From assembly GCA_028281765.1 (NCBI GenBank), contig JANQJF010000044.1, positions 62,001 to 126,000 of the forward strand: a stretch of DNA of 64,000 nt. Reading direction: 5' to 3'. Below the pieces are notes generated by a model, which was not told where the DNA came from, did no database searches, and saw only the letters and a list, made by a program, of their open reading frames with translations. This DNA is from Planctomycetota bacterium. GTDB taxonomy: Bacteria; Planctomycetota; UBA1135; UBA2386. The translations under genes were made by a program, and so were the position numbers. Position 1 is the first letter of the stretch, and the number at the start of each line of letters is the position of its first letter. Below, piece by piece: positions 6,032 to 25,801 of this stretch.

Positions 6032-7000
6032 TCACTTCCGCCCGCGCGCGCCGCCCGAGCGACGCTGCGGCGCCTTCCGCTGCTGCGCGCCCCGCGTGCG
6101 CTGTTGCTGCATCCCGCGCTGTTGGCCACGCTGCTGCATCCCGCGCTGCCCGCGCTGCTGGCCGCGCTGCTGCATCCCACGCTGGCCGCGCTGCTGCATC
6201 CCGCGCTGCCCGCGCTGCTGCATCCCGCGCTGGCCCATCTGGCCCATGCCGCCCCGCTGCTGCATCCGCTCGCGCACGTTTCCGCGCATGTTGTCCCGGC
6301 GATTGTCCTGCCGGCGATCCTGCATCCGCTCGCGCACGTTCTGACGCATGCTGTCGCGCCGGTTGTCCTGCCGGCGATCCTGCACGCGCTCCCGCACGTT
6401 CTGGCGCGCGCCCTGCCGTTCGCGCGGGCCGACGCGGCCGTCGTCGTTGCGATCCATGCGGTTCTTCATCCGCTCGGCGGCCTGCGGGTGGTTGTCTTGG
6501 AACTGCTGGAACCGCTCGTTCTGGTTTTGCCGCCGGTTCTGCATGCGCTTGCCGCGCATCATCTCGCGCGGGCCGAGCTTCCCGTCGTCGTTGCGATCGA
6601 GTCGCTCCGAGGCCTTCGGGTGGTTCTCCTGGAAGCGCTGCGCGCGCTCAGCGAACGGCCTGGCGTTCGGGTGGTTCTCGCGGAACTGCTCGCGGCGCTC
6701 CTGCATGTTCTCGCGGAACTGCTGGCGCTTCTCCTGCTTGTCCTCGCGTCGCTCCTGGCGTCGTTCGCGCACGTTTTCGACGCGCTCCTGGACGCGCTCG
6801 CGCACCTGCTGACGTCGCTCCTGGCGATTCTCGCGTTGGTCCTGGCGTTGTTCGCGCCGGTTCTCGACGCGCTGCTGCGCGTTTTCGCGCACGTGTTCTC
6901 GAACCGCGGGGCGATTCGGTTTCGGCTTCGGCTGGTTCTGCGCTTCGACTTGGTAGGTAAGGAGCAGAGCGACGGGCAGAGCGAGCAGTTTGTAGGTCAT
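6032..7000 (-). CDS. Secreted Arg/Gln-rich protein with two EF-hand loops
   Basis: Start set at the ATG at 7000 (MTYKLLALPVALLLTYQVEA), which gives a clean signal peptide; the frame runs further upstream without support. 322 aa. The mature protein is extremely basic. Residues about 25-110 are repeats of the type RERVQERVENVRERRQ, probably a charged helix or coiled coil. Two perfect EF-hand loops follow (LDRNDDGKLGPRE and MDRNDDGRVGPRE), then VRERMQDRRQDNRRD repeats, and a Gly-Met-Gln-Arg tail of about 60 residues built from RGMQQRGQ units. It should bind calcium and polyanions outside the cell. It is divergent from the PEP-CTERM gene at 7218. No named family was recognised. Confidence 0.75.
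   Translation of the reverse strand: MTYKLLALPVALLLTYQVEAQNQPKPKPNRPAVREHVRENAQQRVENRREQRQDQRENRQERRQQVRERVQERVENVRERRQERREDKQEKRQQFRENMQERREQFRENHPNARPFAERAQRFQENHPKASERLDRNDDGKLGPREMMRGKRMQNRRQNQNERFQQFQDNHPQAAERMKNRMDRNDDGRVGPRERQGARQNVRERVQDRRQDNRRDSMRQNVRERMQDRRQDNRRDNMRGNVRERMQQRGGMGQMGQRGMQQRGQRGMQQRGQRGMQQRGQQRGQRGMQQRGQQRGMQQQRTRGAQQRKAPQRRSGGARGRK
6096..6420. repeat. Coding tandem repeats in the Arg-rich gene
   Basis: 6096-6260 holds short GC-rich units encoding RGMQQRGQ on the minus strand. 6260-6420 holds imperfect longer units encoding VRERMQDRRQDNRRD. They make a long spurious plus-strand frame and are a likely site of length variation between strains. Confidence 0.7.
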
Positions 7001-7183
7001 GTCTAGGTGATCTCCCGATTCTCGGTACGCCCGGATCGACGCAGGGTGTCGATCGCTTGAGCACTCGACGACCACGGGATCTCGAATCGAGACACCGGAA
7101 TCGCTCGCGATGGAACACGCCGTGCGACCGCCGACTCCGCGTGCTCACACGGAGCTGCTTCCGCCTCCCCGCAATTCGTGAAG

Positions 7184-7189
7184 TAGCCT
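7184..7189 (+). promoter_or_regulatory. Candidate -10 of the PEP-CTERM gene in a divergent 217-nt spacer
   Basis: TAGCCT lies 28 nt before the ATG at 7218, and a GGGGGA Shine-Dalgarno precedes that ATG by 3-4 nt. The 7001-7217 spacer must also hold the promoter of the Arg-rich gene, so the two secreted cationic proteins could be co-regulated. Confidence 0.35.
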
Positions 7190-7217
7190 TCGAGCGGAAC
7201 ACCACACCGGGGGAACC

Positions 7218-7580
7218 ATGCTGATCGCCAACCTCATTCTTGCTGCTACCTCGAGCTTCGCCGCTCCTGAATCCATCACCATCGAATCTGTCGTCCTGAC
7301 CGAAACCATCGCCGTGGAACTCGGCGAAGACGGCCGCAAGCGCCGTCGTGGTCGCGGTCGCGCTCGCAACTTCCTCAAGCGCATCGGAAAGGGCAAGGGC
7401 GGCTCGAAGTGCCCGAAGCCGCCGAAGTGCAAGCCCGGCAAGGGCAAGAAGAACTGCAACCGCCCCGTCCCGGAGCCGATGACGCTCTCGCTGCTCGGCC
7501 TCGGTGGCGCCGGCCTCATCGGCACGCTGCGTCGTCGTCGTCAGAACGCCACGGACGCGATCGAGTCGGTCGACGCGTGA
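7218..7580 (+). CDS. Small cationic PEP-CTERM sorted protein
   Basis: 120 aa. An N-terminal signal (MLIANLILAATSSFA) is followed by a short acidic segment, then a Lys/Arg/Pro/Cys-rich stretch at residues 40-82 with Cys at 65, 71 and 80. The end is a textbook PEP-CTERM tripartite signal: VPEP at 84-87, a hydrophobic segment at 89-103, and RRRR at 105-108, with an unusual 12-residue tail after it. PEP-CTERM proteins are cleaved and anchored or released by an exosortase. The only exosortase gene in the window lies within 600 bp, so this is its probable cargo. The role of the basic Cys-Pro stretch is unknown; polyanion binding is a guess. Confidence 0.8.
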   Translation: MLIANLILAATSSFAAPESITIESVVLTETIAVELGEDGRKRRRGRGRARNFLKRIGKGKGGSKCPKPPKCKPGKGKKNCNRPVPEPMTLSLLGLGGAGLIGTLRRRRQNATDAIESVDA

Positions 7581-8174
7581 TCAACGCAGCGCTGCCGCGG
7601 CAGCGCCGGCGATCGCTTCCAGGCGACGGCGCGTGACTTCGGTCAACGTTCCGTCGCCTTCTGCGTCGTACGCTTCCTCGACTCGAATCCAAACGAGGTC
7701 CGACCGCGCACTGACCACGCGCCGCCACGCGCTCTCTCCGGCGGCTGCGGGTCGCTGCTGCCAGTAGAGCGCGACGCGGATCTCCTCTTCGCGCTGCACG
7801 ACGAGCCGCGTCACCTCACGCCCGGCAACGTCGACGGCCTCGGGCCCTTCGAGGATGTTCCACCCGAGCGCCGTGTAGCAGACCGCCGGGTCGTGGGGCT
7901 CCTCACTGAGCAGCCCTCCGCCCGGGAAGTAGCCGGAATAGACCGACAGCCACGGCGACTCCGCGTCGCCTTCGAAGTAGGAGTAACCCTCCGGTAGCAA
8001 CCCCTCGTCCTCGAAGCGCACCGCCGCCATCTCCACCGGAGCGCACGCCATCGCGACGCCGGACGCGAACGCGTCGACGTCGAACTCGCCGCTCCCGTCG
8101 AGAGATCGGTCACGCCAGACGACGACGTTGGTCGCGACGAGCACGCCGAGCGCGATGTTCGCGGCGCGTTTCAT
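7581..8174 (-). CDS. EpsI-like exosortase-associated protein (DUF3485 type)
   Basis: 197 aa from the ATG at 8174, which overlaps the exosortase stop as ATGA, so translation is coupled. An N-terminal membrane segment (ANIALGVLVATNVVVW) is followed by a soluble domain. The motif HDPAVCYTALGW corresponds to the H-x-P-x-x-C-x-x-x-x-G-W signature of EpsI/DUF3485 proteins, which are encoded next to or fused to exosortases and support processing of sorted proteins. The sequence is short and divergent, so the call rests on the motif plus the position. Its 3' end abuts that of the convergent PEP-CTERM gene. Confidence 0.75.
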   Translation of the reverse strand: MKRAANIALGVLVATNVVVWRDRSLDGSGEFDVDAFASGVAMACAPVEMAAVRFEDEGLLPEGYSYFEGDAESPWLSVYSGYFPGGGLLSEEPHDPAVCYTALGWNILEGPEAVDVAGREVTRLVVQREEEIRVALYWQQRPAAAGESAWRRVVSARSDLVWIRVEEAYDAEGDGTLTEVTRRRLEAIAGAAAAALR

Positions 8175-9013
8175 GCGGGCTCCTCCACGAGCGGCTCGAC
8201 CGGCTCCGAGCACAGCTGGCTGCCGACGAACAGGGCAACCAGAGCGCTGCCCAAGCTCACCATTCCCAGCACCTCGTGCGCGACATCGGACTCCGCGAGC
8301 GGCAGGTCGAAGCGCACGAGAATCGCGCTGATCCACACGCGCAAGAGGCTACCGACGAAGGCGAGCACGATCCCGACGATCGGCAAGAGGGCGGCCTTCC
8401 AGGCGACCACGCGATCCTGCAGACCGACCAGCACGAGCGCGAGCGGCACGAACAGGAGCACGCCGCCGAGCCCGCTGCAGTCGTCGACGACCGCGACGCT
8501 GCCGCCCGTCATGTGCAGCACCGCTCCCTCGATCTCGATCCTGCCGACGAACGGTCCGAGCACGAGCGGCGTCACGAAGACCGTGATCGCGACGAGCGTC
8601 TGGGTCATGGCACCGAGCAGGAACCCGGGGGGCGGCGTGGCCAAGAGCAGCAGTGCGAGCGGGAGTGCCATCGCGCGGAGTGCGGACGACCCGCCGTAGA
8701 GCAGGATCAGCGCGGCGACGATCCCGACCGCACCGAGACCCGCGACGATGCGCACGTCGAACAGCACCGCAGCCGCGTACGCGAGAGCTGCGACCAAGAG
8801 CACCGCAATCCCGACGCCGGCATCTCCCGCGTGACCCTCGTCACGGAACACGTCCCGTCTGCGCCATGCCATCGCGAGTCCCGCGGCGAACGCGAGCGCG
8901 CTCGACGCTGCCACTTTCGACGAACCGGTCCACGTCGCGTACAGGAGCTCGAAGTACGGCACGAGCAGCAGCAGCGCGGCGGTCGCGAGGATCGAGATGC
9001 GGGAGTTCGACAT
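8171..9013 (-). CDS. Exosortase
   Basis: 280 aa with about eight hydrophobic segments. The three catalytic residues of exosortases are visible: Cys179 in VVDDCSGLGG, Arg225 in SLLRVWISAIL and His246 in VAHEVLGMV. It is a membrane cysteine transpeptidase/protease that recognises PEP-CTERM tails. It is shorter than the fused exosortase-EpsI proteins, and here EpsI is the next, overlapping gene. The DUF5916 gene starts 51 nt upstream on the same strand, so a three-gene operon is possible. The subfamily cannot be set by eye. Confidence 0.88.
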   Translation of the reverse strand: MSNSRISILATAALLLLVPYFELLYATWTGSSKVAASSALAFAAGLAMAWRRRDVFRDEGHAGDAGVGIAVLLVAALAYAAAVLFDVRIVAGLGAVGIVAALILLYGGSSALRAMALPLALLLLATPPPGFLLGAMTQTLVAITVFVTPLVLGPFVGRIEIEGAVLHMTGGSVAVVDDCSGLGGVLLFVPLALVLVGLQDRVVAWKAALLPIVGIVLAFVGSLLRVWISAILVRFDLPLAESDVAHEVLGMVSLGSALVALFVGSQLCSEPVEPLVEEPA

Positions 9014-9064
9014 GTGGAGCGGTTCCCCACGCGGTGGATCGGAACTCCGCGGACACCCGCTTCA

Positions 9065-11269
9065 CTAGAACCGGATCGTGTGGGCGAACTTGATCGCCAG
9101 CTCCTGCGCATCCGGGCGGAGGCTCCCATCCTCGCCACGCAACCAACCCGCGGTGACAACGACGAAAAGGTCCGACCCGGGACGGGTGATCCAGCGAGTC
9201 CGGCTCTGCAACCCGAGGTTCCGAGACTGGTTGTCGTACTGGATCAGGTTCTGCACGCTCAGCCACGGCGTGAAGTTGAAGTCGACGTTGCCCTGGGCGA
9301 TGGAGCTCGTGAAGTCCCGACCGAACAGGTCTGCCTTGGTCTGCCTGTACTCGCCGCCGAGGATCAGCAGCGGGCTCGTCCGCCAGGTGAACTCACCGCG
9401 CAGCTCCCAGGCATTGCCGTTGTAGAAGTCGCCGATGACGTTCGAGAGCTCGACGTTGATCGGGCGCGCCTCCGACGTCGAGAAGCTCACCCCGCCGCGC
9501 GTCTCCCAATAATCCCCGGCCGGCACGACGATGTCGTCGAAGATCGTGAACGCGTCGGGAACGCGTTCGAACTCGCGCTCGATGAACGTGCGGAACCGGT
9601 CTTCGTCGTGCGTCGAGAACCCGAACGGCGAGACCTGGAACTCCATGTCCGTGACCTTGTTGCCCTGATCGACGATCAGCTGCATGTCGAGGTCGAACGA
9701 ATAGAAGCGGATCAGGTCGTCGTTCTGCGTGCGCGGATTGAAGTCGATCTCGAGGCTCGTGTCCTTGACGTCACGCCGGCGCACGAAGCCGAGCTCGGGA
9801 TTGAACTCCTCGCCGACCCAGCGCGACTCCGCTTCGACCTCCCACTCCCGCCCCACCGCAACGGCGCGCACGCCGGCCGCGCTGCCGTCCCCGCCAACGC
9901 CGGACGTCTGGCTTCCGATCAGGAACGCCCACAGCCGCAGGTCCATGTCGCCGACGAACTCGGGCTCTCGGTGGAAGAAGTCGACACCCGCCACCTGGTT
10001 CGACCCGCGCTCGGTCGGACGGCCGGTGGTGCCGATCACGCCGACGCGGGTCTCCTCGGCGACCGAGCGGTTGATTCGCACGACCCCGAGCTCCCGGTTG
10101 AAGTCGTTCCCACCGCCCTCCCCGGTGCCGACGATCAGCCCCCCGACCTCCCAGGGCCCCTGTTGCCCCGCGATCTTCGCTCCGGCGAGGATCGGGATCT
10201 GCCCGTCGCCCCCGAGGCCGACCCGGCGGCTGAAGAACGGGACGAAGCTCGAGCTCCGGGGACCGAATTGGAAGCGCGACTCGTCTTCGAGGAAGAAGTC
10301 ACGGCGCTCGCGGAAGAACACCGGGAACCGAGTGAGGTTGATCACGCGATCGTCGTTCTCGGTCTCCGCGAAGTCCGTGAAAAACGTCACCGCGGCGCGC
10401 ATCGACGGGCTCAGTCGGAAGAACACTTCGCCACCCGCATCGGGGTCCGAGGTCCAGCTGTCATCCGTCAGCCGGTTTCGACGCTGACGAAACGCGACGT
10501 AGGGTCGCGCGTCGATGCCGGTACCCTCCTCGACTTCGCCGAAACCGTCGATCTCGCCGAGCTGATCGAGCCGGAAAAACGGTCGGGACTGACTCGCGTT
10601 CGACCAACGGTACTGCTCGTTCGTCCAGCGCCGGATCCGATTGACGTTGAAATTCCACGTCGAGTCGTCGTCCGGGAACGCGATGCTGCGAAACGGGATC
10701 CGCAGTTCGAACTGCCAGCCCGTGTCCGTGACGCGTGAACGTCCGTTCCAGATCGTGTCCCACGACTTGGCGAAGGAGTTGTTGCCGAGCAATCCGTCGC
10801 CGAGGCTGCCTCCGGCGCCGATCTGGAAGAAGTAGCCCTGGTTCTGGTTCTGGAACGTGTCGATCAGGAACTCGACGCGGTCATCGGGGTCGAGGCGGGC
10901 GTCGAACGCGCGCTGCGTCCGACGGATCATGTCCGGGCGATCGTCGAAGCACTGACCCGCGATGTAGAGATAATCGCGATCGTGCGTGATCTGGATCACC
11001 GTCCGCTGCAGGGGCACGACCCCCGCGACAGGCTCGACCTGGATGAGGTCGCCGATCTCCGGCGTCTTGGCCCAGCAAGCATCGTCGAGACGCCCATCCA
11101 GTCGCGGCGCCTCGCTGGAATCGATCCGCCCGATCTTCGCGCGCCGGCCGACCGCCTCGCCGAGAGGCGACGGTTCTTGCGAAATCTGCTGTGGCGCAGC
11201 CGCAATGGCGGCCGCTGCCAAGGTTGCGATCGAGAGCAGCAAGGTGGGGTCCGGAGGGGCGGGCCGCAT
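9065..11269 (-). CDS. DUF5916 outer-membrane protein with CBM9-like N-terminal domain
   Basis: 734 aa. The signal peptide lies in the first 25 residues. Residues about 45-230 look like a family 9 carbohydrate-binding fold (PRLDGRLDDACWAKTPEI, then YLYIAGQCFDD and WQFELRIPFRSIAF). The rest is rich in alternating aromatic strands and ends in FAHTIRF with a terminal Phe, the mark of an outer-membrane beta-barrel. This is the DUF5916 architecture, common in Bacteroidota and planctomycetes and of unknown function, probably glycan related. It lies upstream of the exosortase on the same strand. Confidence 0.82.
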   Translation of the reverse strand: MRPAPPDPTLLLSIATLAAAAIAAAPQQISQEPSPLGEAVGRRAKIGRIDSSEAPRLDGRLDDACWAKTPEIGDLIQVEPVAGVVPLQRTVIQITHDRDYLYIAGQCFDDRPDMIRRTQRAFDARLDPDDRVEFLIDTFQNQNQGYFFQIGAGGSLGDGLLGNNSFAKSWDTIWNGRSRVTDTGWQFELRIPFRSIAFPDDDSTWNFNVNRIRRWTNEQYRWSNASQSRPFFRLDQLGEIDGFGEVEEGTGIDARPYVAFRQRRNRLTDDSWTSDPDAGGEVFFRLSPSMRAAVTFFTDFAETENDDRVINLTRFPVFFRERRDFFLEDESRFQFGPRSSSFVPFFSRRVGLGGDGQIPILAGAKIAGQQGPWEVGGLIVGTGEGGGNDFNRELGVVRINRSVAEETRVGVIGTTGRPTERGSNQVAGVDFFHREPEFVGDMDLRLWAFLIGSQTSGVGGDGSAAGVRAVAVGREWEVEAESRWVGEEFNPELGFVRRRDVKDTSLEIDFNPRTQNDDLIRFYSFDLDMQLIVDQGNKVTDMEFQVSPFGFSTHDEDRFRTFIEREFERVPDAFTIFDDIVVPAGDYWETRGGVSFSTSEARPINVELSNVIGDFYNGNAWELRGEFTWRTSPLLILGGEYRQTKADLFGRDFTSSIAQGNVDFNFTPWLSVQNLIQYDNQSRNLGLQSRTRWITRPGSDLFVVVTAGWLRGEDGSLRPDAQELAIKFAHTIRF

Positions 11270-14962: not shown

Positions 14963-15955
14963 CTAACGCGCCGCGAGCAGAGCCAGCCGAAGCCCGAGCC
15001 CGAGCACCGCCTTGCCGGCCTTGCCCATCCCCAGCAAGCGCCGGAACGCGCGCACCATTCGGTCGTCTCGAAGCTGTGGGGTGCTGTCGCGCGCGAACTC
15101 GATCTTCTCCTTCGCAGCGTCGTGATCTCCGGCGACGAGGTCGCGGTATGCGTCGTAGAGGAGATTGTTGCGCACCGCCGAGCGACGCTGGGCGACGTGC
15201 GGATCGAGCCAACCGCGCGCGAGCCCGTGCTCTGCCGCGAAGTCGAGCACGTCGAGTTCTTCTCGATAGCGGCGCAGCGTCCGCGCGTGGTCGAGCGTCG
15301 CGTTCGAGTCGTGGCGGCGATACCGGATCAACGCTTCCGACTCGGCTTCGATCGACCAACCGTCGAGCAGAAACGCAAACCAGAGCTTCCAGTCGGGCGC
15401 GAAGTGCATCGACTCATCGACGCCGCCGACGCGACGCCACGCGTCCGTGCGGTAGAGGGCGGACGGACAGTTGATGAAGTTGCCGCGAAACAGACGCCGG
15501 TAGACCTCGGGGCTCTTCGCGTGCTCGAGGCCGCGCCAGAACTTCACCTTGTAGGATTCCGACGGCGCGGCGATCGGTTGACCGCCCTCGTCGATCGCGT
15601 TCGCCCGGCAGTGCACGAAGCCGACGTCGTCATCCGCCATCAGCGCGAGCATGCTCTCGAGGTAGTTCGGCAGGTAGACATCGTCCATGTGCGCGAGGCA
15701 GAAGAACGGCGTCTCCACGAGCTCCGCGCAGCGATTCCAGTTGCCTGCGAGGCCGAGCGCCGGTTCGTTGCGCTCGATGCGCATCCTCGGTCCGCCGATC
15801 TTCTGCGCGATCGCGACGGAATCGTCCGTCGACGCATCATCGACGAGCAGCAGCTCGTAGTCCTCGATCGTCTGCGCGAGCAGGGACTCGAGCAGCGGTC
15901 GGAGGTAGGGCCCCGCGTTCCGGCAGGGGATGGCAAACGTCGCGTTGCGGGTCAA
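14963..15955 (-). CDS. Family 2 glycosyltransferase
   Basis: 330 aa from a TTG start at 15955. The GT-A fold is clear: FAIPCRNAGPYLRPLLESLL at the N-terminus, LLVDDASTDDS for nucleotide-sugar binding, and an HMDDVYLPNYL DxD-like metal site near residue 95. An alpha-helical C-terminal part (HARTLRRYREELDVLDFAA) may bind a partner or the membrane. It transfers a sugar to a cell-envelope or exopolysaccharide acceptor; donor and acceptor are unknown. It is divergent from the LD-carboxypeptidase gene, with about 60 bp shared upstream. Confidence 0.85.
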   Translation of the reverse strand: MTRNATFAIPCRNAGPYLRPLLESLLAQTIEDYELLLVDDASTDDSVAIAQKIGGPRMRIERNEPALGLAGNWNRCAELVETPFFCLAHMDDVYLPNYLESMLALMADDDVGFVHCRANAIDEGGQPIAAPSESYKVKFWRGLEHAKSPEVYRRLFRGNFINCPSALYRTDAWRRVGGVDESMHFAPDWKLWFAFLLDGWSIEAESEALIRYRRHDSNATLDHARTLRRYREELDVLDFAAEHGLARGWLDPHVAQRRSAVRNNLLYDAYRDLVAGDHDAAKEKIEFARDSTPQLRDDRMVRAFRRLLGMGKAGKAVLGLGLRLALLAAR

Positions 15956-21797: not shown

Positions 21798-23357
21798 CTA
21801 CGCCGCCGCGCCGGTCTTCGACTTGCGCCCGCGCAGCGTGACCCGAATCTTCCGGCGCACGTCGATCAGGTACGTCTCGAGCTTCCGGGTCTCCTTGCCG
21901 ATCAGCGAGTTCCACAGCGTCGTGACGAGACGCCACGGGCGCGTCGCGAACGACACCGCGTAGAAGTTCAGCAGGGTCCAGTAGCGCCAGCGCGTGAGCT
22001 GCTTCGCGGTCAGGTTGTCCGAGTAGTTGTTCTCTTCGGCCACCTTCGCCTCGTTCGCGAAGATCGGCGTCAGCAGGAAGTCGTCGTTCAGCTCGATCCG
22101 GCCGGTGCCAACCAGCTGGTGGTAGAGCTTGGTGTTCGGGATCGGGAAGAAGAAGCCGAACGCCATGTCCGTGATGCCCAAGAACGCGAGCTTGCGCGCG
22201 AGCTTCACGGTCTGCTTGAGGTCGCTGACTTCGTCTTCCGGGAACCCGGCGATGAAGAACGCGGAGACGTTGAGACGGTGCCGAACGGCGGCCTTGACCG
22301 CGCGGAACAGCGACTCGTCCTTCATCATCTTCTTGACGCGCTTGCGCGTCGCCTGACTGCCGCTCTCGGGCGCGTAGTTCAGCGAGACGCCGTTGGTCTT
22401 CTTGAGCCACTCGGCGACCTCGTCGTCGATGACCTCTACGCGGGTGCCGGACGGGAGCTGCCAGCGGATCTCGTTCACGAAGGGCCGGCTCGCGAGCTCC
22501 TTGCAGAAGTTCACGACCCAGTCCTTCTTGAGGATCGCGGTCAGGTCGTGGAACGGGAAGTTGTTCGCGCTGTAGGTATGGTGCCAGTGCTCCATCTCGT
22601 CGACGACGAGCTTGGGGTCGCGCGCGTACCAGCGCGTGGTCCACATGTTGGGCGACGAGCAGTAGGTGCACTGGTAGGGGCAGCCGCGCGTCGCGAAGAT
22701 CGGCACGGTCATCCCGTAGTGGATCCCGGTGACGAGTTTGCGCTCGTTGTACGCCTCGACCTCGAACAGATCCCAGGCCGGCATCGGGATGTCGTCGACG
22801 GCCTTGCGGCGTGCGCGTTCGACGATCGACTTGGTCGGCTTGCCGAGCGCGTCGCGATACCAGATGCCGGCGACCGAGGAGAGGTTGCGCTCCCCGCGCC
22901 CCACAGCTTCGAAGACTTCGATCGCGCCCTCTTCGCCTTCACCGAGGACGATCACGTCGATCGGCGCCTGCTCCATCGAGTAGTCGGGCAGACCGGTGAA
23001 GTGTTCGCCGCCACAGACGATCGGCGTGTTCGGGAACCGCTCGCGCATCGCGTGCAGGATCTCGCGGACGATCGGCCACGAGAACGACCACATGTTCGTC
23101 ACGCCGAAGGCATCCGCCTCCGGGTCGAGGCGATCGACGATCTCCTCGGGAGTCAGGCCGAGAGCAGACAGCTGCGGCCGTGGACCGGGGGTGACCTTGT
23201 CCGGCGCGAGGCCGACGGCGTCGACGACCGACACGTCGTGTCCCGCTTCCCGCAGCGAAGACGCGATGTAGGCCAGGCCCAACGGCAAGCTCGGTCGCAA
23301 CGCGGTCATCGCGTGAACGTTCAGGTAGACCGGCGGATGGACCAGTTGAATCTTCAT
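21798..23357 (-). CDS. B12-binding radical SAM protein
   Basis: 519 aa. Residues 1-175 form a Rossmann-like cobalamin-binding domain (QLVHPPVYLN, SLPLGLAYIASSLREAGHDV, PIVCGGEHFTGLP, VIVLGEGEEG). The radical SAM domain has Cys226, Cys230 and Cys233 in RGCPYQCTYC for the 4Fe-4S cluster, then the NYAPESGSQATRKRVKK and FIAGFPEDEVSDLKQT blocks. The C-terminal 90 residues are helical and basic. Relatives methylate or rearrange unactivated carbons in lipids, sugars and natural products. Following the heptose genes it may act on a surface sugar or lipid. The substrate is unknown. Confidence 0.88.
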   Translation of the reverse strand: MKIQLVHPPVYLNVHAMTALRPSLPLGLAYIASSLREAGHDVSVVDAVGLAPDKVTPGPRPQLSALGLTPEEIVDRLDPEADAFGVTNMWSFSWPIVREILHAMRERFPNTPIVCGGEHFTGLPDYSMEQAPIDVIVLGEGEEGAIEVFEAVGRGERNLSSVAGIWYRDALGKPTKSIVERARRKAVDDIPMPAWDLFEVEAYNERKLVTGIHYGMTVPIFATRGCPYQCTYCSSPNMWTTRWYARDPKLVVDEMEHWHHTYSANNFPFHDLTAILKKDWVVNFCKELASRPFVNEIRWQLPSGTRVEVIDDEVAEWLKKTNGVSLNYAPESGSQATRKRVKKMMKDESLFRAVKAAVRHRLNVSAFFIAGFPEDEVSDLKQTVKLARKLAFLGITDMAFGFFFPIPNTKLYHQLVGTGRIELNDDFLLTPIFANEAKVAEENNYSDNLTAKQLTRWRYWTLLNFYAVSFATRPWRLVTTLWNSLIGKETRKLETYLIDVRRKIRVTLRGRKSKTGAAA

Positions 23358-23436
23358 GGTGCGGGTTCTGAGCGCCGAGGCGAGGCGGTCCAGTCGGGAC
23401 AGACGTGAGAGCAGAAAACCGTCCCAGGAGAAGGCT

Positions 23437-23442
23437 ATCTTA
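23437..23442 (-). promoter_or_regulatory. Candidate -10 of the radical SAM gene
   Basis: Minus-strand TAAGAT about 80 nt before the ATG at 23357, inside the 265-nt spacer after the sugar kinase gene. A weak TTCTCG lies 17 nt upstream. The rest of 23358-23622 shows no gene. Confidence 0.3.
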
Positions 23443-23622
23443 TTCCGGGCGATCCGGGGCGAGAATCCGGGAGTGTCCGTGAGTCCGCTTCCGGCGGATT
23501 ACGGCGAGCGGGAACCCGGGCGGAAACACCCGTGGTATCGCCCGTTGTGCCCACGGCACTCCGCGCCTCGTGCGCAGGAAAATCATCCCGGTCGGACGCC
23601 AGACCATCCGGACGGGAGCCCA

Positions 23623-24672
23623 CTAGCCCCCTTCGACCGGGTCGTGATCGACGAGCGGCGCCACGAGGCTGTCCGAGTTGCTGATGATCTTCGTCCCCTC
23701 GAACTCGATCGCGTACGGCAGGCGCTGCATCCCGGCCTGCTGCATGAACTGATTGAGCTCGGCGTGGCGTTGCGGGGCGTAGACGACGAAGAAGCCACCC
23801 CCGCCGGCGCCCGACACCTTGCCTCCGAGCACACCGAATCGTGCCTTGATCTCGTCGTAGAGCGCGTCGATGCCGGGGATCGTGATGCGCGACGACAGCG
23901 CCTTCTTGTGCTCCCAGTGCTCGTCCATGAGACGACCGAAGTCGTCGTAGTTCTCGGTCTCGAGCGCCTCTTTGATCTGGTAGCCGACCTCCTTGATGCC
24001 GTGCAGCGCGGCCTGCACCGCGTCGTGCACTGGCGTCCCGGGATCGCGCATCGCGTGGTCCTGGTCGCGGAGCACGTTCGGCGCGCTGCGGCGCACGCCC
24101 GTGTAGAACAGCATCGTGTTCGACGTGAAGTCCGGCATCGACGTCGGGTTGATCCGGCACGCGGACACTTCGACCGTCCCGTCGGTACCGATCTGCAGCA
24201 GCGTCATGCCGCCGAACGCGGCCATGTACTGGTCCTGCTTGCCGATCCCCTTGTCGAGCAGTCGCAGCTCGATCTCGCACGCCTCCTCGGCGAGCTCCTG
24301 CCGCGAGCAGAGATCCGCGCGGTAGGTGCGCAAGGCGTGCAACAGACCGACGAGATAGCAGCTCGAGGACCCGAGGCCGGTGCCCGCCGGCAGATCCGCG
24401 ATCGAAGAGACCTCCATGCGCGAGAAGATGCCGTGCCGCTTCAGCGCTTCGCGCGCGAGCTCGTGCTGCAGCTCGTCCGGGTGCGAGGCGGTTTCGCTCT
24501 TCGTGTACTGCAGTCGGATCTTGCGATCGACGAGCGGCGTGTTGATCGCGATGTGCATGTACTTGTCGATGCCCATCGCGAGGATGAACCCGCCGTGCTT
24601 CTCGTAGTAGGACGGCAAGTCGGTGCCGCCGCCACCGAGCGTGATGCGGAACGGTGTGCGCGAGACGATCAT
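23623..24672 (-). CDS. GHMP sugar kinase, HddA-like (heptose 7-phosphate 1-kinase type)
   Basis: 349 aa. GHMP signatures are present: RTPFRITLGGGGTDLPSYY at the N-terminus, the ATP loop DLPAGTGLGSSSC near residue 95, and KVSGAGGGGFFVVYAP near 290. The opening and the KQDQYMAAFGGM block match D-glycero-alpha-D-manno-heptose 7-phosphate kinases of the GDP-heptose route. The start overlaps the SIS gene stop as ATGA. Together with the GmhA-like isomerase this points to heptose 1-phosphate synthesis for a surface glycan. No nucleotidyltransferase gene is in the window. Confidence 0.85.
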   Translation of the reverse strand: MIVSRTPFRITLGGGGTDLPSYYEKHGGFILAMGIDKYMHIAINTPLVDRKIRLQYTKSETASHPDELQHELAREALKRHGIFSRMEVSSIADLPAGTGLGSSSCYLVGLLHALRTYRADLCSRQELAEEACEIELRLLDKGIGKQDQYMAAFGGMTLLQIGTDGTVEVSACRINPTSMPDFTSNTMLFYTGVRRSAPNVLRDQDHAMRDPGTPVHDAVQAALHGIKEVGYQIKEALETENYDDFGRLMDEHWEHKKALSSRITIPGIDALYDEIKARFGVLGGKVSGAGGGGFFVVYAPQRHAELNQFMQQAGMQRLPYAIEFEGTKIISNSDSLVAPLVDHDPVEGG

Positions 24673-25307
24673 CGTTCGGAGTTCTCCTGGGGGCGCGGCG
24701 CCGCTTCGGCGCGATGGTCTTCGATGAAGGCACGCAGACGCGCCGTCACGAGGTGGTGCAACACGACGTGCAACCCTTCGACGTGCGGGGTCGCGTCGGA
24801 CGGCACGACGACCGCGACGTCCGCGAGTTCGGCGAGCGGGCCACCGTCGTGCCCCACGAATGCGAGCACCCTGCCGGCGCGCTGTTTCGCGTAGCGGCAG
24901 GCGCGCAGAACGTTCTGGCTCCAGGGACCCGCGCGGTCCGATCCCGCACCGCCGTGCACGGAGATCGCGAACACGACGTCGCCCGGCGAGAACCAGGTTT
25001 CGAGCTGTCGCTCGTAGACCGATTCCCAGCCGAGGTCGTTGGTCAAGGCCGAGAGCAGCGGTCCGTTGTCATTGAGCGACAGCGCGCGCACCGGCGGTGC
25101 GCCGTCGACCCGCGTACACTGAAAGAGATCCGCAGCGAGATGCTGCGCCGTGCCGGCCGATCCACCGTTCCCGAACGTGAACACCGTGTTGCTCCGGCGC
25201 CATGCGCCGCCGAGCTCGTGGACCATGCGCTCGATCGCCGCGCCGTCCAAACGTGCGAGCAGCGCGCGCGAAGTCGCCAGAAAGTCGTCGATCGCGTCCC
25301 GACTCAA
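24669..25307 (-). CDS. gmhA: SIS-domain phosphoheptose isomerase, GmhA-like
   Basis: 212 aa from a TTG start at 25307 that overlaps the HAD gene stop as TTGA; no ATG exists near the conserved N-terminus, and longer frames read into the HAD gene. The core motif FTFGNGGSAGTAQHLAADL matches the GmhA phosphate and active-site loop, with Asp in place of the usual Glu four residues after His. VFAISVHGG and the HVEGLHVVLHHLV end, with its metal-site His residues, also fit. It converts sedoheptulose 7-phosphate to D-glycero-D-manno-heptose 7-phosphate. It is translationally coupled on both sides. Confidence 0.83.
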   Translation of the reverse strand: MSRDAIDDFLATSRALLARLDGAAIERMVHELGGAWRRSNTVFTFGNGGSAGTAQHLAADLFQCTRVDGAPPVRALSLNDNGPLLSALTNDLGWESVYERQLETWFSPGDVVFAISVHGGAGSDRAGPWSQNVLRACRYAKQRAGRVLAFVGHDGGPLAELADVAVVVPSDATPHVEGLHVVLHHLVTARLRAFIEDHRAEAAPRPQENSER

Positions 25308-25801
25308 CGCGCGGCTCCGTAGGCCTCGACGCGCCGCAGCATCGACAGGGCGGCGTCGAGGTCGGGGGCGATCAGGTCGGGCCGGTGGCGCGGCTTCGCG
25401 TGCGGCGCACCGACGAGGATCGAACGCATCCCCGCGCCGCGAGCCATCTCGATCGCATGGACCTCGTCGGCGACGACGTAGGAACGATCGAGATCGAATC
25501 GATGCTCGGCGGCGACATGGCACGCGAGTTCGGATCGCCACAGCCCGGCGCCAGCGGATTCGATGCGCTCGACGGCGTCGATCCGCGCGCCGTTGTCGCC
25601 CAGGTCCGCCCGTAGATCACGCTGGTAGCGATCGAACTGCTGGGGGGTCGCTTCCTCGCTCGGCAGTAGAAGGACGGTAAAGCACCCGGCGCGGTTGAGT
25701 CCGCGCACGAATCGGCTCGCCTGGCGACCGAGAATCGTGCCGCAGGCGGCCAGCAGCAGCCGGTCACCGGCGATCACCATGCCTGGGACGTGCTTCCTCA
25801 C
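25304..25801 (-). CDS. Degenerate GmhB-like HAD-fold protein (probable pseudoenzyme)
   Basis: 165 aa from a GTG at 25801. The layout is that of GmhB/HisB-N HAD phosphatases: an N-terminal strand and loop, a small insert, and the C-terminal block DRSYVVADEVHAIEMARGAG followed by RSILV. The nucleophile motif LDxDGT is replaced by LAACGT, and the usual GDKxxD near the end reads ADEVHA. Both catalytic Asp residues and the metal-binding Asp look lost. Family and operon position say heptose 1,7-bisphosphate phosphatase, but the residues say it cannot hydrolyse phosphate in the usual way. It could be a structural or regulatory partner. It lies 16 nt after the RNase D stop. Confidence 0.65.
   Translation of the reverse strand: MRKHVPGMVIAGDRLLLAACGTILGRQASRFVRGLNRAGCFTVLLLPSEEATPQQFDRYQRDLRADLGDNGARIDAVERIESAGAGLWRSELACHVAAEHRFDLDRSYVVADEVHAIEMARGAGMRSILVGAPHAKPRHRPDLIAPDLDAALSMLRRVEAYGAAR

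Follow-up and report, generated by a model that had tools for sequence, protein, structure and literature searches.

An exosortase gene next to a single small PEP-CTERM gene raises the question of whether the enzyme is devoted to that one cargo. The locus studied here lies in the window, a stretch of 64,000 nucleotides analysed from the genome of a Planctomycetota bacterium (8.78 Mb in 129 contigs, 88.8% complete). Three genes occupy 1.8 kb of it (7218-9013): a PEP-CTERM cargo gene on the forward strand and, on the reverse strand, genes for an EpsI-like protein and an exosortase. The two units are convergent, and the stop codons of the cargo and EpsI-like genes abut (TGATCA). The exosortase and EpsI-like genes are coupled via an ATGA overlap, in which the EpsI-like ATG, preceded by GGAGGAG, overlaps the exosortase stop. 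The first-pass annotation had described a 120-aa PEP-CTERM protein, an overlapping EpsI-like gene and an exosortase with Cys179, Arg225 and His246 within 1.8 kb, and the coordinates, lengths and residues all agree with ours. With four PEP-CTERM loci and two exosortases in 8.78 Mb, the chance of finding such neighbours within 1 kb is p ~0.003. A promoter and terminator search over 6900-9200 gave no match.

The cargo (7218..7580, forward strand) is a small cationic protein of 120 aa with what we call a class-2 sorting signal, as judged from TIGR02595, PF07589 and the class score described below. It scores 27.0 bits against TIGR02595 (curated cut-off 16) and 22.2 bits against PF07589 (curated cut-off 20.7), and has the PEP motif, helix and C-terminal basic cluster that define PEP-CTERM proteins. 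Read by eye, its N-terminus is hydrophobic, with an n-region free of Lys and Arg, and the presumed signal peptide would cover residues 1-16, ending at FAA/PE (7218..7265). By composition, there follow an acidic stretch of 22 residues (17-38, net -6) and a cationic segment with three Cys (residues 39-83, 7332..7466, net +20 in 45 residues). The sorting signal VPEPMTLSLLGLGGAGLIGTLRRRR (residues 84-108, 7467..7541) was matched by TIGR02595, and the genome search returned the same stretch. After RRRR comes a tail of 12 residues, QNATDAIESVDA (7542..7577; 11 residues under a cruder count). This tail had been singled out as a special feature, which the comparison does not bear out: tails after the basic cluster measure 0-16 residues in 37 cargos with the other, class-A signal and, where a genome is one of the six with this type of enzyme, 0-22 residues in its class-A cargos.

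The exosortase (280 aa; 8171..9013, reverse strand) scores 98.9 bits against PF09721 (Pfam gathering cut-off 25.7) and 33.0 bits against the exosortase/archaeosortase model TIGR04178 (cut-off 23); these matches and the tree described below place it in a small second clade. The conserved Cys, Arg and His of exosortases are read in the sequence as C179, R225 and H246 (codons at 8477..8479, 8339..8341 and 8276..8278) and are invariant in the six members of that clade. Against the EpsH-type model TIGR02602 it reaches 76.3 bits, below the cut-off of 105.55, and its five clade relatives, at 45-99 bits, likewise fall below. The models of named subtypes (XrtA, B, C, D, N, O, V, W and the cyanoexosortases) all score below their curated cut-offs, the best being XrtV (68.5 versus 313) and XrtA (66.6 versus 208). 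By Pfam and by its residues this is an exosortase system; by score it belongs to no named subtype. The EpsI-like protein (197 aa, DUF3485; 7581..8174, reverse strand) scores 30.4 bits against PF11984 (cut-off 26.1) and 25.5 bits against TIGR02914, below the cut-off of 42.8; its HxPxxCY motif (H94, P96, C99, Y100) is invariant across the clade. Exosortases have about eight membrane helices. Structure models were too poor for a structure search, the AlphaFold2 model of the exosortase being helical with a mean pLDDT of 52 and that of the EpsI-like protein having a mean of 42; for solved structural relatives, none emerged for the exosortase and two chance-level matches for the EpsI-like protein.

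The enzyme stands outside any polysaccharide gene cluster and does not qualify as an EPS-linked, XrtA-type exosortase. Its neighbours encode an Arg/Gln-rich protein, a DUF5916 protein, a DUF1295 protein and a kinase; no glycosyltransferase gene adjoins it, the nearest lying about 6 kb away (14963-15955). The extremely Arg/Gln-rich, repetitive protein (6032-7075, reverse strand) is the divergent neighbour of the cargo gene and is built on 33- and 87-base repeats; its start resembles a signal peptide, and it contains two EF-hand-like loops, DRNDDGxxGPRE (Pfam matches sub-threshold). No such protein was seen beside those clade loci of relatives that were read. Further along, at 21798-25801 on the reverse strand, a radical SAM/B12 protein, a GHMP sugar kinase and a HAD-like protein are encoded in series, presumably as part of a sugar pathway, perhaps heptose-like.

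A genome-wide PEP-CTERM count and exosortase search, which the first-pass annotation had named as its own refuting test, revealed three further cargos and a second exosortase. The window protein is the only visible cargo within the window; across the genome, four PEP-CTERM proteins exceed the cut-off. A sole exosortase with a sole cargo is ruled out by the second enzyme, on contig C16, and by the three other PEP-CTERM proteins. The C16 exosortase (PF09721 135.5 bits) sits in an EPS cluster that looks canonical from its gene content: an XrtA polysaccharide deacetylase (TIGR03006, 305 bits, cut-off 276), an exosortase-A-type O-ligase (TIGR03097, 250 bits, cut-off 188), an EpsI just over its cut-off (43.4 versus 42.8), and an XrtA-type amidotransferase and a PEP-CTERM-type response regulator, both below theirs. 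This genome, at 88.8% completeness, thus has four PEP-CTERM proteins for two exosortases; the class-2 signal is found on one of these proteins. The norm in the family is one to seven TIGR02595 matches per genome at E up to 0.3 (34 genomes; the matches listed reach E ~0.27).

In a tree of 62 exosortases, drawn from the 83 matches listed, the window enzyme and those of five relatives (G003, G055, G046, G038 and G042) form one clade with support of 99/99; the EPS-type enzyme of G046 lies outside the tree and was assigned by score only. The clade spans two families of the order and occurs in six of the 154 genomes of the class. A profile of the six members gives them 325-357 bits and nothing else in these 154 genomes above 89.5 bits; outside the class nothing exceeded 95.5 bits in a sample of 392 genomes from the phylum, a loose test with a profile of the same six members. 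Each of the six genomes has a high-scoring EPS-type exosortase as well. The nearest relative by exosortase is G003, which belongs to the family of the window's genome.

A small PEP-CTERM ORF adjoins the clade exosortase in all six genomes. In five of the six loci the cargo converges on EpsI and the exosortase, as in the window; in the sixth, G042, it lies upstream of the enzyme on the same strand. Exosortase and EpsI are fused in G055 and G046, and three cargo genes stand in series in G003. Of the 31 EPS-type exosortases of relatives, none has a listed PEP-CTERM match within 3 kb, some of them being near contig ends with incomplete flanks; the same listing shows such a neighbour for three of the six clade members, the other three having been found by pattern or protein search. 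Glycosyltransferase genes adjoin the clade enzyme at four of the five other clade loci (G003, G046, G038 and G042).

The cargos fall into two classes by sorting signal. Class A, VPEPxTLLLVGTGL, is carried by the three other cargos of the window's genome and by nearly all cargos of relatives with an EPS-type enzyme only; class 2, [VAT]PEPxx[LM]SLLGLG, is carried by the window cargo and by most cargos adjoining clade enzymes. Scored with W-minus-A matrices from which the genome under test had been excluded, the ten cargos beside clade enzymes all fell into class 2 and the 37 cargos of the class-A set (23 genomes with an EPS-type enzyme only) all into class A, the labels having been assigned after the sequences had been viewed. 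In the window's own genome the three other cargos scored -24.2 to -24.9 and the window cargo +9.5, the lowest value among the ten, and the search of this assembly (88.8% complete) yielded no further class-2 signal. Thirteen weaker matches from the 23 genomes, scored later, comprised four without a PEP signal, one excluded as not credible (G011 C8, with an internal stop and no helix; +30.5) and eight credible ones, seven of which scored class A (one at just -0.5), for a total of 44 of 45. The exception, G010 C235, scored +12.3, above the window cargo, in a genome where no clade enzyme was found.

At 48 bits or more, a class-2 profile matched clade-enzyme genomes only (121 genomes), a result that is circular for the rows from which the profile was built. 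At lower scores, two cargos of G058, from the genus of G038, are class-2-like (33.7 and 28.9 bits), and we could find no clade exosortase in that genome; because the neighbouring glycosyltransferase gene is missing too, loss of the locus and an assembly gap look alike. G113 has a match of 34.8 bits, again with no clade enzyme found, and the signals of G055 fit the profile badly, the best at 11.3 bits.

The cargos also differ in charge. Over the 25 residues before PEP, net charge is positive in nine of the ten cargos beside clade enzymes versus one of the 37 from EPS-type-only genomes (Mann-Whitney p 1.5e-5; p 1.1e-4 on genome means), in sequences that are not independent and with a property that was noticed before testing. 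The ten include a third adjacent cargo in G055 that is cut by the contig end; the second adjacent cargo of G003 is negative (-3). Among 14 class-2 cargos with mature starts placed by eye, a set that leaves out the cut G055 cargo and a 45-aa frame of G003 (C143, +13.8), twelve are positive over the last 40 residues; the class-A mean is -0.07 per residue. Two distant cargos, G046 C16 and G038 C211, consist of runs of Lys, Arg and His.

Many class-A cargos have a different build, with a lipoprotein-like start (for example MRLNLLLSLSLGLVLAACADHSG), a Gly-rich stretch of about 55-120 residues and the class-A PEP-CTERM. Examples are L012:8719-9225 (reverse strand) and L013 (C44:79295, reverse strand), with relatives in L133-L192 and a lipobox of the form ..LAACADHSG... 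Judged by eye, such proteins occur in 22 of the 23 EPS-type-only genomes of the family and in all six clade genomes, about one per genome; of the 40 picks, that on G009 C48 looks spurious on inspection, and in G025 the Cys chosen was not the right one. A lipoprotein-like start was found in none of the ten cargos beside clade enzymes. One end of such a protein could carry a lipid anchor and the other be processed by an exosortase; if so, the protein would be a direct tether between membrane and polysaccharide.

Do these data demand a dedicated enzyme? Both exosortases might process all four PEP-CTERM proteins, adjacency being a relic and the signal classes reflecting cargo ancestry. Sharing of this kind would accommodate the class-2-like signals of G058 and G010, where no clade enzyme was found, as well as the class-2 cargos that lie on contigs other than the enzyme's (C93 in G003, C10 and C16 in G046). 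However, it sits poorly with the clean split between the classes, in the window's own genome and in relatives, and with an adjacency that recurs in six of six clade members versus none of 31 EPS-type enzymes, and we consider it unlikely. The sequence of the cargo itself invites another thought, namely that the exosortase frees a bioactive cationic peptide from the membrane, with no anchoring. An acidic pro-part followed by a cationic part rich in Cys or Trp is the layout of prepro antimicrobial peptides, and the change from net -6 to net +20 with three Cys resembles it, as do the stretches rich in Trp/Arg or His/Lys in the cargos of relatives. Against such a release, the three-gene locus contains no immunity-like, transporter or regulator gene, and in the cargos that adjoin the enzymes of G046 and G038, just 21-22 residues separate the presumed signal peptide from PEP; its probability appears low indeed.

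The presence of one possible start codon only near the expected place, together with the lack of a basic residue in the n-region, might even suggest that the cargo ORF is no gene or that the locus is decaying. Yet G+C by codon position (0.62/0.53/0.81) follows the pattern of a real gene, an SD-like GGGGG precedes the ATG, both PEP-CTERM models are exceeded and the catalytic residues of the enzyme are intact. Moreover, the cargo aligns along most of its length, at 31% identity, with a relative in another family, the G038 C211 cargo (E 2e-7, in a single two-sequence comparison). We find this explanation scarcely credible.

Because the class-A/class-2 split holds in the window's own genome and no other class-2 signal was found there, we still favour a dedicated pairing over the other readings. 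The first-pass annotation had proposed a dedicated one-substrate system, which fails as the sole system of the cell and survives as a narrower pairing with the sole class-2 signal of the genome. The term one-substrate fits this genome as assembled and G042, not the whole clade: in G003 an enzyme of this type is accompanied by as many as four class-2 cargos. Most likely, then, the locus is a parallel channel that serves one to a few small cationic proteins.

From the gene content, the layout and its recurrence, the clade, the two signal classes and the charge difference, a mechanism may be proposed, in which export, cutting and catalysis follow what the protein families would predict. The cargo would be exported by Sec, after which its PEP-CTERM helix and RRRR cluster would keep it in the inner membrane. 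The neighbouring exosortase would recognise the class-2 signal, with its SLLGLG helix in place of LLLVGTGL, and cut next to PEP by means of its Cys, Arg and His. The EpsI-like protein may help to pass the cargo on, probably to a surface acceptor that we guess to be glycan- or lipid-linked. The cationic segment, rich in Lys, Arg and His and in relatives also in Trp, might bind anionic polymers such as exopolysaccharide and so act as an electrostatic glue. This last step is a guess prompted by the charge, by the glycosyltransferase genes at four of the five other clade loci and by reports, in the portions available of two papers, that PEP-CTERM proteins stabilise contact between EPS and cell surface (PMC12188702, PMC9850573). 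Taken as a whole, glue role included, a second, narrowly dedicated exosortase channel for small cationic cargo in a member of the Planctomycetota seems to us somewhat better than an even call. More tentatively, and with doubt prevailing, cargos may be sorted by charge: the EPS-type enzyme would take lipoprotein-like, Gly-rich, neutral or acidic tethers and the clade enzyme tiny matrix cross-linkers rich in Lys, Arg, His and Trp, the choice being set by just a few positions in the PEP-CTERM helix.

How does this pairing compare with known systems? XrtN/MSEP-CTERM of Bacteroidota is a one-target exosortase system with a large target; on the window exosortase the XrtN model reaches 21.4, versus a cut-off of 200. 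Closer at hand, tiny-cargo exosortase operons of the same order (for example L123, L119 and L116) place a PEP-CTERM ORF of about 67-92 aa beside a low-scoring exosortase. They differ from the locus studied here in belonging to other clades, in having the cargo upstream on the same strand and in their signals (SPEPITMIALAGG; GTPEPxxLLLxGGALGYG), and no strongly cationic segment was seen in them. In families f5 and f8, an ORF of 67-73 aa directly precedes the exosortase (L119, L123, L124, L074, L077, L070, L073 and L076), an arrangement present in eight of eight members of that clade, with just some 25 residues separating the presumed signal peptide from PEP. The window's own family contains a third exosortase clade (L112-L116; genomes G008, G015, G020, G021 and G030), with small GTPEP- or GTPAP-type ORFs just upstream of each exosortase. 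Elsewhere (L117, L120, L121, L125, L126 and L127) the exosortase directly follows a protein of 650-800 aa that ends in a PEP-type signal and that we take to be VIT/vWA-like; the L126 exosortase is closest to XrtQ (121.7 bits, below the cut-off of 270).

The PEP-CTERM/EpsH system (exosortase A, XrtA; Haft et al. 2006, PMC1569441) shares with the locus studied here the enzyme superfamily, the PEP-CTERM plan and, probably, the EpsI partner. The window enzyme differs from it in its place outside an EPS cluster, its adjacent cargo and its low XrtA score. Its cargo is rich in Lys, Arg and Cys, whereas classic cargos, in the part of that paper accessible to us, have fewer basic residues, about 0.4% Cys and more Thr, Ser and Asn. 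In the rhombosortase/GlyGly-CTERM system, according to the sections available of its description (Haft and Varghese 2011, PMC3237569), each enzyme has one target and the genes are adjacent in 16 of 21 single-target genomes, a likeness to the pairing described here in gene adjacency and, probably, in the single target; the enzyme family is another, and the window's genome has in addition an EPS-type exosortase with cargos of its own. A literature search at the level of titles and abstracts returned no description of the clade or of small cationic PEP-CTERM cargos. As far as this search shows, the clade, the signal class and the cationic cargos are new; dedicated sorting pairs are already known (PMC3237569, in the portion cited above).

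The clade is sporadic, with six of 154 genomes, which limits the weight of the finding. With a locus of three genes, one small cargo and another enzyme in the same genome whose cargos have a differing signal, this bacterium offers a small natural test case for what the acceptor of exosortase cargos is and for how cargos are kept apart in cells with two exosortases.
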